Positions 2,991 to 8,902 of a stretch of DNA of 29,417 nucleotides are shown piece by piece. Under the pieces are notes generated by a model. That model had not been told where the DNA came from. It saw only the letters and a list, made by a program, of their open reading frames with translations, and ran no database searches. Position 1 is the first letter of the stretch; each line of letters begins with the position of its first letter. The stretch lies in IMG/VR virus record IMGVR_UViG_3300027801_000115, positions 1-29,417 of that record, one strand, 5' to 3'. The position numbers were made by a program, and so were the translations under genes. Source of the stretch: a virus.

Positions 2991-3015
2991 TGAGTAGAAA
3001 TAACTAATACTGCTA

Positions 3016-3348
3016 ATGTCAAATATATTAACACAAATAATCCGTAACCAACGACATGAGAAAGCTGTTAAGCAGTTCCTCACTAGTGTTAATGTGGCTG
3101 AAGAATATATCAACTATGATAACTTCAAGTTGTTTGCTGATGCAAAGAAAACAATAGATTTCAATACTGTTAGTAATAATGATACTAGAGTATTAAACAA
3201 GTTTTGTAAACGCTGGATACAACAAAAGGGTGATATAAGCCCTAAAGACATAAGACGTATACAAAACAAAGTGGTGCATTATGCACACAAAGAACAAAAC
3301 TTAGCATTGAGAAGTGCTAGGCTACAAAGAAGAAAAACTTTAAATTGA
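3016..3348 (+). CDS. Hypothetical basic helical protein, 110 aa
   Basis: The product looks entirely alpha-helical and basic, especially at the C-terminus (KEQNLALRSARLQRRKTLN). The ribosome site is weak. Nucleic-acid binding would fit the charge but is not shown. The stop is followed directly by the folded non-coding block at 3350-3888, so the two may share a transcript. Confidence 0.6.
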   Translation: MSNILTQIIRNQRHEKAVKQFLTSVNVAEEYINYDNFKLFADAKKTIDFNTVSNNDTRVLNKFCKRWIQQKGDISPKDIRRIQNKVVHYAHKEQNLALRSARLQRRKTLN

Positions 3349-3349
3349 G

Positions 3350-3888
3350 ATAGGCATAAAAGCCGTAAAAGTTGCTGGGGTCACATGAAGATGCTAAGAG
3401 CCCCGGAGCAGTTTGATATTGTTCTTACTATAGTGATATCAAACAGATTGCTGAGGCGGTCAGCCAGTAGTGAGATACTGGTAGGTGATGATAGTCAACT
3501 CCACCCTTTAAATGATGATAGTAAACTCAAAACCCTTCCGGGCGTCTCAAGGAAGCAGTTAACTCTGTATTGACGTTTGTATCTCACATAGAACTTGAAG
3601 GTGCTATAAAGTATTTTTTTTATGGAAAAATACACTTAGCACTCTTATGACTTCTTCATTCAGAAGTCCTTCTCCCCTTCCAAGCATCTTAGGAAGTTCT
3701 ATTAAACAAATACATCAACAAGTTTCAACTGAGCTAATAAAAAAATTGAGTTAGCTGAAAGCAATTAAATTGTGTTTGGTTCTCATGAACGTAAGTGAAG
3801 TAAGAACAAATGCAATTTCAACTGAACGTAGTGCAGTTGATTATAAAAAACAACACTGAGGTGATTATGTTTACATAATTGCCTTTTG
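3350..3888 (+). ncRNA. Large structured non-coding RNA candidate (~540 nt)
   Basis: No convincing gene lies between 3349 and 3924, yet the stretch is full of stems. Local hairpins include TGCT-GGGG/CCCC-gg-AGCA (3373-3410), GTTTGATAT/ATATCAAAC (3411-3444), GCTGA/TCAGC (3450-3464) and CCAGTA/TACTGG (3464-3481). Others are CTTCC/GGAAG (3535-3555), a two-part stem at 3601-3642, GACTTCT/AGAAGTC (3649-3668), CTTCC/GGAAG (3677-3696), TTTGgTTCT/AGAACAAA (3775-3810), TCAACTG/CAGTTGA (3818-3840) and a terminator-like stem (3860-3887). Two long-range pairings join them. Loop AAGATGCT (3388-3395) is complementary to loop AGCATCTT (3683-3690). GTGAGATAC (3470-3478, a hairpin loop plus part of its stem) is complementary to GTATCTCAC (3579-3587). 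Size and style recall the large ornate phage RNAs GOLLD and ROOL, but I cannot match it to either. The strand is taken from the terminator and flanking genes. Confidence 0.65.
3860..3887 (+). terminator. Terminator-like hairpin ending the structured RNA
   Basis: GGTGATTATG (3860-3869) pairs with CATAATTGCC (3874-3883), including two G-U pairs, around a TTTA loop. TTTT follows directly. The G-U pairs favour the + strand. It would define the 3' end of the non-coding RNA, before the small gene at 3925. Confidence 0.55.
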
Positions 3889-3924
3889 TCTTGACTCCAA
3901 TGCACACACAGGATAAGTAATACT

Positions 3925-4101
3925 ATGAAGTTTTCAGATAAGAACCCAGTAATAACAAAGAACCAATTTCAATATGAGATGCATCAACTCAGTAAGGAGT
4001 TTGACAGACTTATGTTACACAATGCCGTAGTAGCAAGTTACTTGATGTGCCCTTGCTATCAAACAAAGGAACGTATAAACGCCTTAAAGAAAGCCGATTA
4101 A
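3925..4101 (+). CDS. Small hypothetical protein, 58 aa
   Basis: ATG 3925 follows AGGAT by about 10 bases. The product starts MKFSDKNPVITKNQ, is mostly helical with a Met/His/Leu core (DRLMLHNAVVASYLM), contains a Cys-Pro-Cys pair and ends in a basic tail. No family is recognised. It begins just after the terminator of the structured RNA. Confidence 0.55.
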   Translation: MKFSDKNPVITKNQFQYEMHQLSKEFDRLMLHNAVVASYLMCPCYQTKERINALKKAD

Positions 4102-4125
4102 AACTGTTGTTAATAAATATGCTGT

Positions 4126-4476
4126 ATGACCATACACACAGAAGTATTAATATCACATGCAGTTAACATAATAAAGAATTGCAAACACAACATAGGATTT
4201 AGTAAGCTGAGCCAAACTCCAAGTCACCTTACATATGACGTTAGACGTATTGAAAAGCAATGGGAGTTACGTGGGGCCATATCAGAAGAAGATACACACT
4301 ATCTAGCACACATATATGTATCAAGTAATGACTACTTACGCAGTCACGTTTACATGCTAGGCGGTTGGCATAAGTTTAAAAGCTATAGACACGCAAGTCA
4401 CAACATGCACACTCTAAAGCGTCAAAAACGTAGTAAACTCCGCTATTCCACAGAGCATTACACCCAAACAAGATAA
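4126..4476 (+). CDS. Hypothetical protein, 116 aa
   Basis: The ATG at 4126 lies shortly after an ATAAATA motif (4113-4119); no strong Shine-Dalgarno sequence is visible. The product is His-rich and basic toward the C-terminus (HASHNMHTLKRQKRSKLRY), with a helical N-terminus (HTEVLISHAVNIIKNCKHN). No domain is recognised. It lies just upstream of the small-terminase candidate and may be a DNA-binding accessory protein, which is a guess from charge and position. Confidence 0.6.
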   Translation: MTIHTEVLISHAVNIIKNCKHNIGFSKLSQTPSHLTYDVRRIEKQWELRGAISEEDTHYLAHIYVSSNDYLRSHVYMLGGWHKFKSYRHASHNMHTLKRQKRSKLRYSTEHYTQTR

Positions 4477-4532: not shown

Positions 4533-4919
4533 ATGAAACAACCTAACTACCAAGTAAAACAAGTCAAATACGGTGAAAAGACCGTGCAAGGCAGAGTTGT
4601 GGGCAGAGACAAAGTGGTTATCCCAGAAGAAGAGTTCTACAAGTTAGCATGTTTACATACCACGTGGAAAGACCTTAGTGACTTCTTTGGCGTTCCAGTA
4701 GGGACCTTAAGAGACAACTTCGCTGATTTATACATAAAAGGAACGCAAACCACAAAGCAGAAACTCCGTCAAAAGATGTTTGAGACTGCTATGAATGGCG
4801 ACCGTGTTATGATGATATGGTTAAGCAAGAACTGGTTGGGTTATAGCGATAACGGACCACAAGAAGGAAATGAGGAAGATAATATGCTTCCTTGGACAGA
4901 AAAAGAAGAAGAAAAATGA
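4533..4919 (+). CDS. terS: Terminase small subunit candidate
   Basis: The 128-aa product has a helix-turn-helix-like region at about residues 30-65 (FYKLACLHTTWKDLSDFFGV, then VGTLRDNF). A helical segment ending in MIWLSKNWLGY follows, with an acidic tail. The sequence pattern of a resolvase-like HTH followed by residues resembling 'A..GD..M.IWL.K..LG' is common in small terminases. These bind the packaging site on phage DNA and recruit the large subunit. The large terminase gene starts 1.6 kb downstream in the same operon, separated by HNH genes. The call rests on pattern and position; another DNA-binding regulator is the alternative. Confidence 0.65.
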   Translation: MKQPNYQVKQVKYGEKTVQGRVVGRDKVVIPEEEFYKLACLHTTWKDLSDFFGVPVGTLRDNFADLYIKGTQTTKQKLRQKMFETAMNGDRVMMIWLSKNWLGYSDNGPQEGNEEDNMLPWTEKEEEK

Positions 4920-5043: not shown

Positions 5044-5271
5044 ATGAAGTTTACAACACCAAAGATAAAAGACATCTCAGACTTTCAAAAAGAAAGAGTA
5101 TGTGGACCACTTAACGTTTTCAGTTTAACAACAGTCAGCTTAGTGTGGGGACACATGTTGGGCTTACTTAGTCCATGGTTTATTCCAGTCACAGTATGCA
5201 CATTACTAATTGGCTATGGATCAGAAATAAACAAAGAAAAACCTAAAACAACTCAAACAATCAGCGTATAA
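5044..5271 (+). CDS. Small two-TM membrane protein, holin-like
   Basis: AAGGAT lies about 8 bases before the ATG. The 75-aa product has a charged N-terminus and two hydrophobic stretches, about residues 24-43 (NVFSLTTVSLVWGHMLGLLS) and 45-62 (WFIPVTVCTLLIGYG). These are separated by a short Pro-containing turn, and a polar, Lys-rich tail follows. Two closely spaced membrane helices in a protein of this size suit a small holin, which would permeabilise the inner membrane at lysis. It is located in the packaging operon rather than beside an endolysin, so the role stays uncertain. The next gene starts within its stop codon. Confidence 0.5.
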   Translation: MKFTTPKIKDISDFQKERVCGPLNVFSLTTVSLVWGHMLGLLSPWFIPVTVCTLLIGYGSEINKEKPKTTQTISV

Positions 5272-5858
5272 TGAAAGGCATTAAAAAGTCTGGCGTTAAA
5301 GGTGAGCCCCACAGTATTAGTAATATCAGCAACCACTACATACAGAAGTTTGCAGATAGAATCACAATACAACCAAACGGATGTCACTTCCTAAATGGCA
5401 ATACTATTAATACTGGATACGTTAACTGGTGGTATCGTTATGAAGATGCTAGTGGCGAAACTAGAGTGCGTTATATAAGTGCCCACCGCTTTAGTGCATT
5501 TACAAGTGGTAAGTTTAAAGAAGCCGAAGTTAATGACTATTGTGTGTTACATGATTGTGATCAACACTATGAAGATGATGATGTTAGTTACAGACAGTGT
5601 GTTAATCCTGCTCACCTCTTTATTGGCACCGTGCAAGACAATGCACTTGATTGTGTTCGCAAAGGCAGACACCGCAATGGTGAACCACGACCAGGCGAAC
5701 TGAATGCTAACAGTAAACTAACTCAAAGTCAAGCACAATTTATCATAGACAATCACTACATTATAACACAAAGAGAACTGTCAGCACAATTGAATATTAG
5801 TGTTAGCACCGTTGAAGCAATACACAGTAACAAAACATGGAAGCACCTAGGCAGATGA
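5271..5858 (+). CDS. HNH endonuclease with C-terminal helix-turn-helix
   Basis: The 195-aa product carries an HNH core at about residues 70-133. AHRF is followed by CVLHDCD (His94), then QCVNPAHL (Asn112, His115), GT, DN and KGR, the usual order of phage HNH_3-type nucleases. Residues about 150-195 form a helix-turn-helix (SKLTQSQAQFI..., ELSAQLNISVSTVEAIHS, TWKHL). Such proteins are either free-standing homing endonucleases or, next to terminase, packaging cofactors as shown for HK97 gp74. The key residues look intact. It shares architecture with the 162-aa protein at 6033-6521 and is probably its paralogue. A TAATG overlap couples it to the upstream gene. Confidence 0.87.
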   Translation: MKGIKKSGVKGEPHSISNISNHYIQKFADRITIQPNGCHFLNGNTINTGYVNWWYRYEDASGETRVRYISAHRFSAFTSGKFKEAEVNDYCVLHDCDQHYEDDDVSYRQCVNPAHLFIGTVQDNALDCVRKGRHRNGEPRPGELNANSKLTQSQAQFIIDNHYIITQRELSAQLNISVSTVEAIHSNKTWKHLGR

Positions 5859-6040
5859 TGGATATGAATGACGTAAGAGAGATCATACTACAATGGGAAC
5901 GTGGCTTTGAAACTAATGAAGACAAGATGTTCTTTTACTTAAAGCATTGTGACACACTACAAGATAACTATTGGGATATGCTACCAATGGACGGACAATT
6001 AAAAATAAAGGATCATCCTTGGGATAACCTAGATGACTAA
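5855..6040 (+). CDS. Small acidic protein, 61 aa
   Basis: I choose ATG 5855 because it makes a classic ATGA overlap with the stop of the HNH gene (5856-5858). An in-frame ATG at 5837 would lie deeper inside that gene. The product is acidic, with aromatic and Asp-rich parts (EDKMFFYLKHCDTLQDNYWD, ending HPWDNLDD). No family is recognised. It is sandwiched between the two HNH genes. Confidence 0.6.
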   Translation: MMDMNDVREIILQWERGFETNEDKMFFYLKHCDTLQDNYWDMLPMDGQLKIKDHPWDNLDD

Positions 6041-6521
6041 CAATATGCACAAACCAATTACACAAAGAGATTTAGATAGATTCTGGAGAAGCGTTGAAAA
6101 ACGTGGAGAGGATGAATGTTGGGGCTGGAAGTTGTGTAGCACTCATGAAGGCTATGCATTGTTCACAGCTGGTAATGGCTTACACAGAGCACAACGTTTT
6201 GCTTACAATAACTTTGTGGCACCCTTAAAACATCAGCAACGTGTGAGTTCAACATGCAAAGACAGACAGTGTTGTAACCTTAAACACTTGTATACTACCA
6301 CTCAAGGCGAACTGTTAGCAGAAGCTAGAGAACGTGGAACGTTATGTGTTGGCTCAAAGAACAGAGCAAGTAAACTACAAGAGGCTGACATTGTAGCCAT
6401 AAGAGCACGTTATGAATGGCGTTCACCAGTTAACGGATTGGGCGGCATTGGTGCAGACTATGGTGTATCACCTGGCTGTGTTAGAGACATCATGATACGC
6501 AAGACATGGAGACATGTTTGA
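6033..6521 (+). CDS. HNH endonuclease-like protein with altered active site
   Basis: The 162-aa product begins like many phage HNH proteins: a helix (DLDRFWRSVEK), then DECWGWK, a beta region (EGYALF) and HRAQRFAY. The expected 'V-x-H-x-C' block reads VSSTC, so Ser73 stands where the first catalytic His is expected. The later Asn and His are kept (CCNLKHL, Asn82, His85). The C-terminus repeats the helix-turn-helix layout of the first HNH protein (SKLQEADIVAIRARY..., IRKTWRHV). It may be a catalytically weak or inactive paralogue retained for DNA binding. It overlaps the gene before by 8 bases and the large terminase by 16. Confidence 0.75.
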   Translation: MTNNMHKPITQRDLDRFWRSVEKRGEDECWGWKLCSTHEGYALFTAGNGLHRAQRFAYNNFVAPLKHQQRVSSTCKDRQCCNLKHLYTTTQGELLAEARERGTLCVGSKNRASKLQEADIVAIRARYEWRSPVNGLGGIGADYGVSPGCVRDIMIRKTWRHV

Positions 6522-8040: not shown

Positions 8041-8237
8041 AAACAAGAACATACAGATTCTATTGGTATGATATGAGTAGCACATACCAAAAACAAGACC
8101 GCATACTACACACTAATATGACTTGGAAGATGAACACTATAAAAGAACTTGACCAGTATGCAGTATACAAAGCAAAAGCCATCGGTGCATTCAAGCATGA
8201 AGTATATGATGAAAGAGAATTGTTAAAAGGCATATAA
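8037..8237 (+). CDS. Hypothetical protein, 66 aa
   Basis: An ATGA overlap couples it to the preceding gene. The product is rich in Tyr, Lys and Arg (TRTYRFYWYDMSSTYQKQDR) and ends in an amphipathic helix (LDQYAVYKAKAIGAFKHEVY). No family is recognised. It is the last gene before the terminator at 8302-8338. Confidence 0.6.
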   Translation: MKTRTYRFYWYDMSSTYQKQDRILHTNMTWKMNTIKELDQYAVYKAKAIGAFKHEVYDERELLKGI

Positions 8238-8240
8238 CAA

Positions 8241-8248
8241 GATAAATA
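8241..8248 (+). promoter_or_regulatory. GATAAATA motif at the end of the packaging operon
   Basis: The octamer starts 4 bases after the stop of the 66-aa gene and precedes the TAGCAAC/GTTGCTA stem (8253-8300). It is the same sequence as at 2534, 4472 and 8843. A role is inferred only from repetition and position. Confidence 0.25.
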
Positions 8249-8301
8249 CACATAGCAACGGTGTGAGTGTGTATGTGTGGTATGTTAAACTAAGTTGCTA
8301 G

Positions 8302-8338
8302 GCCTCGCAATATATAGGGTATGTTGTGGGGCTTTTTT
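8302..8338 (+). terminator. Rho-independent terminator of the packaging operon
   Basis: GCCTCGCAA (8302-8310) pairs with TTGTGGGGC (8324-8332) over 9 bp, followed by T6. Two of the pairs are G-U on the + strand and would be A-C mismatches on the other, which fixes the direction as rightward. It is preceded by the 7-bp stem TAGCAAC/GTTGCTA. Confidence 0.8.
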
Positions 8339-8339
8339 A

Positions 8340-8539
8340 TGGATAAAATAAAGTGAAGGCAAACTAGGAGTATATAAACACACAATAGTTAATTTTAATC
8401 CTAGCCGCCTTCTGTAGAGTAACATGCTGTCCCACCCGGGACAAACAAGAGAAGCTAAACATTGCATTAAATTCACAGGAAGTTCCTTTAATTAAGTGGA
8501 AAGTATTACCTTTCCGGATTATGCTTTCTCTTTGTTACA
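8340..8539 (-). ncRNA. Leftward structured RNA candidate
   Basis: The consensus promoter at 8546-8573 points into a stretch with no reading frame but several stems: AACAAGAGAAGC (8444-8455) with 8523-8536 (12 pairs, two single-base bulges), GGAAAG/CTTTCC (8498-8515), TGTCCC/GGGACA with an ACCC loop (8428-8443), and a two-part stem GAAGGC-CTAGGA/TCCTAG-GCCTTC (8355-8412). The expected start is near 8539. The 3' end is not clear; after the last stem the minus strand reads ACTTTATTTTAT, which could end it near 8340. Known 6S, tmRNA or RNase P features are not seen. Confidence 0.5.
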
Positions 8540-8545
8540 GCAACT

Positions 8546-8573
8546 ATTATAACATCTTTGAGAGGTATGTCAA
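8546..8573 (-). promoter_or_regulatory. Perfect-consensus sigma70 promoter, leftward
   Basis: On the minus strand TTGACA (plus 8568-8573) is followed after 16 bases by TATAAT (plus 8546-8551). Both hexamers match consensus exactly. It lies downstream of the tRNA and fires away from it, into the folded stretch below 8540. It is the strongest host-type promoter I found in the window. Confidence 0.75.
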
Positions 8574-8590
8574 CCTTTATTGGAGGAAAG

Positions 8591-8665
8591 TGGCTGGCAA
8601 GGTAGGGATCGAACCTACGACATTCTGATTAACAGTCAGATGATCTACCGCTGATCTACTTGCCA
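8591..8665 (-). tRNA. tRNA-Asn (anticodon GTT)
   Basis: On the minus strand all four arms fold. The acceptor is TGGCAAG/CTTGCCA, the D stem GATC/GATC with loop AGCGGTA, the anticodon arm TCTGA-CTGTTAA-TCAGA (anticodon GTT), and the T arm GTAGG-TTCGATC-CCTAC. The variable loop is ATGTC, the discriminator is G and CCA is encoded. The G discriminator and ATGTC match bacterial tRNA-Asn. It probably supports translation of the Asn-rich tail proteins. It is the only clear gene on this strand. Confidence 0.95.
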
Positions 8666-8702
8666 AAAAAAAAACTACAAAGTGGTTATAGCACAATGTA
8701 GT
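8664..8702 (-). terminator. Terminator-like hairpin abutting the tRNA 5' end
   Basis: On the minus strand ACTACA pairs with TGTAGT (plus 8697-8702 and 8674-8679), with an inner GTG/CAC stem. About ten T follow and run directly into the first base of the tRNA. It looks like an intrinsic terminator placed just upstream of the gene it should not block. It may end a leftward transcript from the right, or form part of a tRNA leader. Confidence 0.5.
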
Positions 8703-8842
8703 TCCTTAAGTTAGTTTATAATCAGAGTAGGCAATAACCCCATATTATATAACACGGGTAGGACAAGCCCTGCGCCTAATTAGTCACTTACACATACTTA
8801 TCGTGCATTACACCGTATTTACACCCTAAACTGGACTAAAGC
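8703..8842. other. Non-coding stretch upstream of the portal operon
   Basis: No gene is seen between the tRNA and the portal gene. The stretch holds a weak nested stem (TAGGC 8728-8732 with GCCTA 8774-8778, GGG/CCC inside) and two TTACACC copies at about 8810-8825. TATAAT (8717-8722) occurs without a matching -35. It probably contains the promoter of the morphogenesis operon. Confidence 0.3.
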
Positions 8843-8850
8843 GATAAATA
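8843..8850 (+). promoter_or_regulatory. GATAAATA motif upstream of the portal operon
   Basis: The octamer lies 53 bases before the portal start, in the only gap between the terminator at 8338 and the head genes. A promoter must lie somewhere here. The overlapping TATAGT (8849-8854) could be a -10, but no good -35 is found. Confidence 0.35.
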
Positions 8851-8902
8851 TAGTCGTATACAACAAAAAGTTTAAAAGAACATTTTACCACCGCGGGGAA
8901 AT

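Follow-up and report, generated by a model that had tools for sequence, protein, structure and literature searches.

A large structured RNA, probably the first of its family, next to a small basic protein gene in an exchangeable slot of environmental phage genomes

The window analyzed here, a stretch of DNA of 29,417 nt from a small tailed phage, contains a gene for a small protein of 110 aa, p110, that is followed on the same strand by a gap of about 540 nt, corresponding to about 2% of the 29-kb genome (Table 1). ORFs of 70 aa or more are absent from positions 3349–4125. Downstream of the gap lie small genes and then the terminase subunits, with TerS starting at 4533 and TerL at 6506. An earlier note, made from the letters of the sequence, had read the gap as a large folded non-coding RNA, and the hairpins that it described, as well as the terminal stem followed by TTTT, are all in place.

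Several other features of the window may be recorded. The left end of the contig (12–1304) carries a 430-aa ORF with DUF285 repeats (E 4e-12). The interval between TerS and TerL encodes two related-looking proteins of 195 aa (5271–5858) and 162 aa (6033–6521), both of which have counterparts in every close relative; the C-terminal end of the 195-aa protein is helix-turn-helix-like (HTH_24, E 0.0017, below cut-off). The gap of 862 nt between TerL and the portal gene (8041–8902) includes a tRNA-Asn(GTT) on the minus strand (8591–8665). The matching gap of one relative, L043, also has a tRNA-Asn, and in other relatives it is 550–840 nt long and has no tRNA. An alignment of five of these gaps gave an alifold z of −3.2 (25 shuffles), and the gap may hold another RNA or site.

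The region after p110 had been described as lacking a convincing gene, and this holds up. Its longest internal ORF is 62 aa and is not conserved in the homologues described below. In tblastx comparisons among these, similarity was found in short pieces scattered across all six frames, which argues against a conserved protein, and the frame of the longest open stretches varies from member to member. A reading frame conserved across the region, which the earlier note had named as evidence against an RNA, was thus not found. The plus strand of 3350–3900 has a minimum free energy of −149.1 kcal/mol, compared to −121.8 ± 6.7 kcal/mol for dinucleotide shuffles (z −4.1), which supports the view that there is structure beyond composition, these z-scores being measures of excess structure only. 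The minus strand is also better than chance (z −3.1). The G+C content is 37% for the RNA and 38% for the window.

Four members of the RNA, here called class A, were identified, all of them from metagenomic virus contigs and with pairwise RNA identities of 48–60%. In addition to the window, these are L008 (IMGVR 3300025137_000185), which was reached via terminase neighbours and in which the RNA is recognisable; L016 (3300010354_005412), which came from a search for the motif GATGATAGTCAAC...AATGATG across 2.9 million viral contigs and has a small terminase of only 43% identity; and L045 (3300022198_004466), which was reached through the L016 terminase. The three homologues also fold better than their shuffles (Table 1). 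When the four sequences were aligned with MAFFT, unguided by structure, RNAalifold gave a z of −8.1 for the plus strand vs. −6.6 for the reverse complement (100 and 60 shuffles, respectively, with gap pattern and column identity preserved), and 17 of the 52 pairs that it picked are maintained through two-sided change in at least one sequence.

The conserved fold, placed by hand, consists of 13 hairpins (H0–H13), several of them two-part, whose order, gaps aside, is common to the four members. There is near-complete sequence turnover in H2, H8 and H12. In the hand-made alignment, compensatory double changes are seen at 48 of the 73 tabulated helix positions and 279 of 281 cells pair, counts that are illustrative rather than a test, since this alignment was built with the structure in mind. 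A closing stem around H3–H5 (GAGGCG/CGTCTC), noticed by eye in the window and, shifted, in L008, is missing from L016 and L045 and was rejected. The comparison of the four members supports a large structured phage RNA. With its compensatory changes, the lack of a conserved frame and a defined 3′ end, as generally expected of large structured non-coding RNAs, the plus strand of 3350–3890 can be called a structured non-coding RNA with near certainty.

Table 1. Features of the RNA locus, in positions of the window, with their counterparts in the homologous contigs
Feature	Position	Strand	Homologues and evidence
p110 gene, 110-aa basic helical protein (predicted)	3016–3348	+	directly upstream of the RNA in 4/4 members
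Class A structured RNA, whole	3350–3890	+	fold z −4.1; homologues z −3.9 (L008), −5.4 (L016), −6.5 (L045); alifold z −8.1
H0, hairpin GGC/GCC	3353–3364	+	L016 TTGGC/GCCAA; L045 GCAC/GTGC
H1, hairpin CTGGGG/CCCCGG; 20-nt loop with conserved AGATG	3375–3406	+	homologues CCTAAG/CTTAGG, CCTGGG/CCCAGG, CTCAAG/CTTGAG
K1′ 5′ strand, AAGATGCTAAG, H1 loop	3388–3398	+	RNAalifold, unguided alignment, columns 50–60 with 323–334; duplex tests
H2, two-part hairpin	3407–3452	+	compensatory change at 11/11 aligned pair positions
H3, hairpin CCAG/CTGG; loop is K2 5′ strand	3464–3481	+	CCTG/CAGG in L016, L045
K2 5′ strand, GTGAGATAC, in H3 loop	3470–3478	+	L008 TGTGTATG; L016 GTGGTATG; L045 TTTAGAGATA
H4, holds best-conserved sequence motif GATGATAGTCAAC	3484–3505	+	identical in L008, L016; CATGATAGGCAAC in L045
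H5, hairpin	3533–3542	+	
H6, hairpin GCAG/CTGT	3555–3568	+	homologues GCAGTA/TACTGT, GCAGC/GCTGT, GCTGTGC/GCACGGT
K2 3′ strand, GTATCTCAC, 3′ of H6	3579–3587	+	L008 CATACACA; L016 CATACCGC; L045 TATCTCTAAA
H7	3601–3642	+	basal stem in 3/4 members, upper stem in 4/4; basal part competes with K1′
K1′ 3′ strand, CTTAGCACTCTT	3635–3646	+	RNAalifold, duplex tests; overlaps H7 basal stem
H8, hairpin GACTTCT/AGAAGTC	3649–3668	+	5/5 aligned positions compensated
H9, hairpin, contains AGCATCTT	3677–3696	+	stem weak in homologues
H10, hairpin	3732–3756	+	
H11 + H12, 3′ module common to class A and class B	3767–3840	+	
H13, intrinsic terminator with U tail	3859–3887	+	covaries with L016, L045; absent from L008

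Two long-range pairings had been proposed from the window sequence, and both complementarities exist there. One of them, between GTGAGATAC and GTATCTCAC, is borne out and is here called K2. The two strands are complementary at the same place in all four members, with a different sequence in each (Table 1). Swapping the loops between members weakens the pairing and the strand's own partner is the best each time, so that the diagonal ranks first among the 24 permutations. Shuffled-loop p values are 0.007, 0.005, 0.038 and 0.003 (combined 6e-6), and K2 is established.

The other proposed pairing, between AAGATGCT (3388–3395) and AGCATCTT (3683–3690), is not conserved. Its duplex p is 0.18 in the window, with no significance in the other three members and a combined value of 0.64 for the corresponding region, and the complementarity may be due to chance or specific to one lineage. 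The partner of the H1 loop that is conserved across the members is CTTAGCACTCTT, not AGCATCTT. RNAalifold, unaided, paired AAGATG and five variable positions of the H1 loop with CTTAGCA-C-TCTT. The p values of this duplex, K1′, are 0.008, 0.001, 0.13 and 0.12 (combined 1e-4), individually significant in the window and L008 only, and K1′ is likely. Loop–loop pairings backed by covariation, as looked for in RNAs of the ROOL or GOLLD kind, are thus represented by K2, in four members, and by K1′. In three of the four members, the 3′ strand of K1′ also makes the basal stem of H7 (H7a, GTGCTA/TAGCAC). Since the same strand is used by both, the two pairings are mutually exclusive, and this is a possible switch.

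With the 4227 families of Rfam 15, cmscan gave no match for the RNA, neither in the window nor in the homologues that were searched, at the gathering thresholds (window, L003, L005, L007, L008, L016 and L021) or at relaxed E-values (E ≤ 10 in window 3000–4200; E ≤ 1 in L008, L016, L021, L045, L048 and L050). C/D snoRNA-like scores with E-values of 5–9 were regarded as chance. Identity with GOLLD or ROOL was rejected, as their covariance models went unmatched at both settings, as was identity with tmRNA, RNase P or group I and II introns, for which the Rfam and ARAGORN models were unmatched. A search of 50,697 phage records with the RNA from the four loci and with p110 returned DNA matches of chance length only, and bacterial and archaeal genome contigs, searched by RNA pattern and p110, returned nothing. 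Pattern matches in L017, L018, L020 and L030–L041 were discarded as chance, as lying in coding sequence or as lacking context. No fitting description was found in the open literature, subscription papers being outside the scope of the search. The RNA had been expected to be either a member of a GOLLD- or ROOL-type class or a new one. Membership is not supported, and the lack of an Rfam match points to a separate, undescribed family, of which this RNA is very probably the founding member.

The position between the same flanking genes is an exchangeable slot. In place of p110 and the RNA, relatives carry an ORF of 485 aa (L007), 245 aa (L005) or 373 aa (L003), and neither p110 nor the other slot proteins matched a PADLOC family. 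Three other related phages have in this slot some 550 nt with no clear gene, called class B (L021:3047–3622, L050:2680–3222 and L048:1–560). It begins with AACACAGAACCCT, at or near the stop codon of the upstream ORF. The 5′ part of class B is unrelated to class A, and the 3′ module formed by H11 and H12 is common to both. A model of this module, R1, scores 79–83 bits in class A and 48–81 bits in class B, these being the model's own input sequences, with the next best match at 17.

Single-fold z-scores for class B are −1.5, −2.7 and −3.5. The alifold z is only −1.5, from three sequences and an imperfect alignment, and class B was therefore not accepted as a covariation-supported family; what is claimed for it is limited to its length, the absence of a gene, the single folds and the shared 3′ module. 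In L048, a TTGACA-16-TATAAT promoter follows the element. Upstream of p110, L045 has a further small ORF (459–704), a relative of which (33% over 57 aa, E 4e-12) is the L050 ORF ending at 2729 that immediately precedes the class B element; this links the two types of cassette.

The class A RNA usually ends at the H13 terminator, for which covariation is seen between the window, L016 and L045. These three members all preserve its tandem G·U pair, and such pairs are possible solely in RNA made from the plus strand. In L016 and L045, a near-perfect sigma-70-like promoter comes directly after it (TTGACA-16-TATAAT and TTGACT-17-TATAAT, respectively), which indicates that the element closes one transcription unit there. 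At the other end, the L016 p110 gene finishes with a promoter-like site (TTGACA-16-TAAAGT), so that the RNA may be started separately. A small hairpin, GCATTGAGAARTGC, in the last part of the p110 gene (window 3300–3345) is conserved as DNA, even at third codon positions, in the window, L008 and L045. The RNA element may begin within the p110 gene.

These boundaries bear on whether the element is instead a long cis-acting leader or 3′ UTR, of the put-like antitermination or riboswitch type, that controls p110 or the downstream gene. It abuts the p110 stop codon, and some pairings of the H1 loop and H7 exclude each other in a switch-like manner. A terminator was sought in L008 but not seen; the element there runs into the next gene and could thus be read as its leader. 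The class B elements of L021 and L050 likewise have no terminator before the ribosome site of the next gene. However, the terminator stands between the element and the next gene in three members (window, L016 and L045), the latter two of which supply a fresh promoter beyond it, and the gene downstream is not constant, being p58 in the window and L008 and a gene of 72–82 aa in L016 and L045. Control in cis is therefore considered rather unlikely.

The p110-type ORFs are 108–126 aa long, with identities to p110 of about 85–86% in L008, 35–36% in L016 and 35% in L045. The protein has a pI of about 10 and a net charge of +12 to +17, and its basic C-terminal part is kept despite the divergence. It is predicted to be all-helical, made from four helices of which the C-terminal one (76–109) is long (pLDDT 79, from only three sequences). 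No match was found in Pfam, PHROGs, NCBIfam, PADLOC or the PDB, and a structure search of the PDB and BFVD with the predicted model gave nothing below E 0.001. p110 and the RNA are linked and probably form an accessory cassette.

Given that p110 and the pseudoknotted RNA are passed on together in a slot whose cargo varies, they could also be a toxin–antitoxin or abortive-infection pair similar to type III systems, with a small toxic protein kept in check by the RNA. However, p110, with its predicted all-helical structure, matches no family, the gene order is protein and then RNA, and the locus shows no evident tandem array of a short antitoxin repeat. The combination of a ToxN-like toxin and short pseudoknotted RNA repeats that marks type III systems was not found at the locus, and this explanation is unlikely.

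The location just before TerS and TerL brings to mind a role in DNA packaging comparable to that of the pRNA of phi29. However, close relatives with TerS and TerL about 80–88% identical have other cargo there and no RNA, and the phi29 pRNA is shorter, at about 170 nt, and works with a different packaging motor, making such a role highly improbable. That the inverted repeats act as DNA, as a replication origin, recombination site or packaging site, is equally hard to credit: the minus strand does fold better than chance by both measures, as expected of perfect stems, but the plus strand does better on both, the conserved G·U pairs, including the tandem pair of the terminator, pair only as plus-strand RNA, the T tail is on the plus strand, and long-range loop pairings would not be expected.

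The many helices, the loop–loop contacts, the size and the RNA's own terminator are the anatomy of an RNA that, like OLE, ROOL and GOLLD, functions as a folded object in itself. The linked basic protein suggests a ribonucleoprotein (RNP), and the exchangeable slot suggests an accessory role. Judged from sequence, there is an even chance that the element is a trans-acting accessory phage RNA that forms a compact RNP with the neighbouring p110. The RNA would be released from the p110 transcript, or started inside the p110 gene. Its folding via K1′ and K2 would give a compact particle, which might be a homo-multimer like those of OLE, ROOL and GOLLD. The very basic p110 would bind this RNA, and during infection the resulting RNP may act in trans on some target in the host. 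Counter-defence or host takeover is the commonest function of phage accessory cargo of this kind and would fit a slot in which close relatives carry different cargo. A more speculative and rather doubtful extension is that large ornate RNAs are exchangeable effectors carried by a family of phage cassettes, with whole RNA bodies swapped at one locus, such as classes A and B, that share a 3′ domain and each come with a small protein gene, and that a multimeric RNP held together by kissing loops disarms a host process.

OLE, ROOL and GOLLD are known to form homo-oligomers (PMC12286853), and each resembles the class A RNA in part. ROOL is phage-encoded and of similar length (659 nt in a solved example), with many helices, loop–loop pairings and pseudoknots, but no protein partner of ROOL is known and it often lies near tRNA islands (PMC12286853), whereas the class A RNA always follows p110. 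GOLLD, also phage-encoded, is modular, with a 5′ part that varies joined to a conserved 3′ region (PMC12286853), reminiscent of the 3′ module of classes A and B. However, many of its members exceed 800 nt and have other neighbours, and the class A RNA has no match to it in Rfam. OLE is a multi-helix RNA of about 600 nt that works with small proteins such as OapA and OapC (PMC12286853), but it is bacterial and chromosomal rather than phage-borne, p110 matches no Pfam or NCBIfam model, and the RNA matches no family in Rfam. Racr RNAs are non-coding RNAs carried by phages as accessory counter-defence (PMC10651486); these are small, solitary mimics of CRISPR repeats, in contrast to the large multi-domain fold described here. 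Proximity to a tRNA island, a trait of ROOL and GOLLD, is not seen, as the sole tRNA of the window is 4.7 kb away on the other strand and L008, L016 and L045 have no tRNAs.

To our knowledge, very few classes of structured RNA longer than 400 nt have been described from phages, and we know of no established role for GOLLD or ROOL. For the class A RNA, the linked basic protein, the exchangeable slot and the existence of close relatives without the RNA make function testable. The presence of a second RNA-like element with a common 3′ module suggests that there are modular RNAs of this kind, and that they are commoner in small environmental phages than Rfam records.
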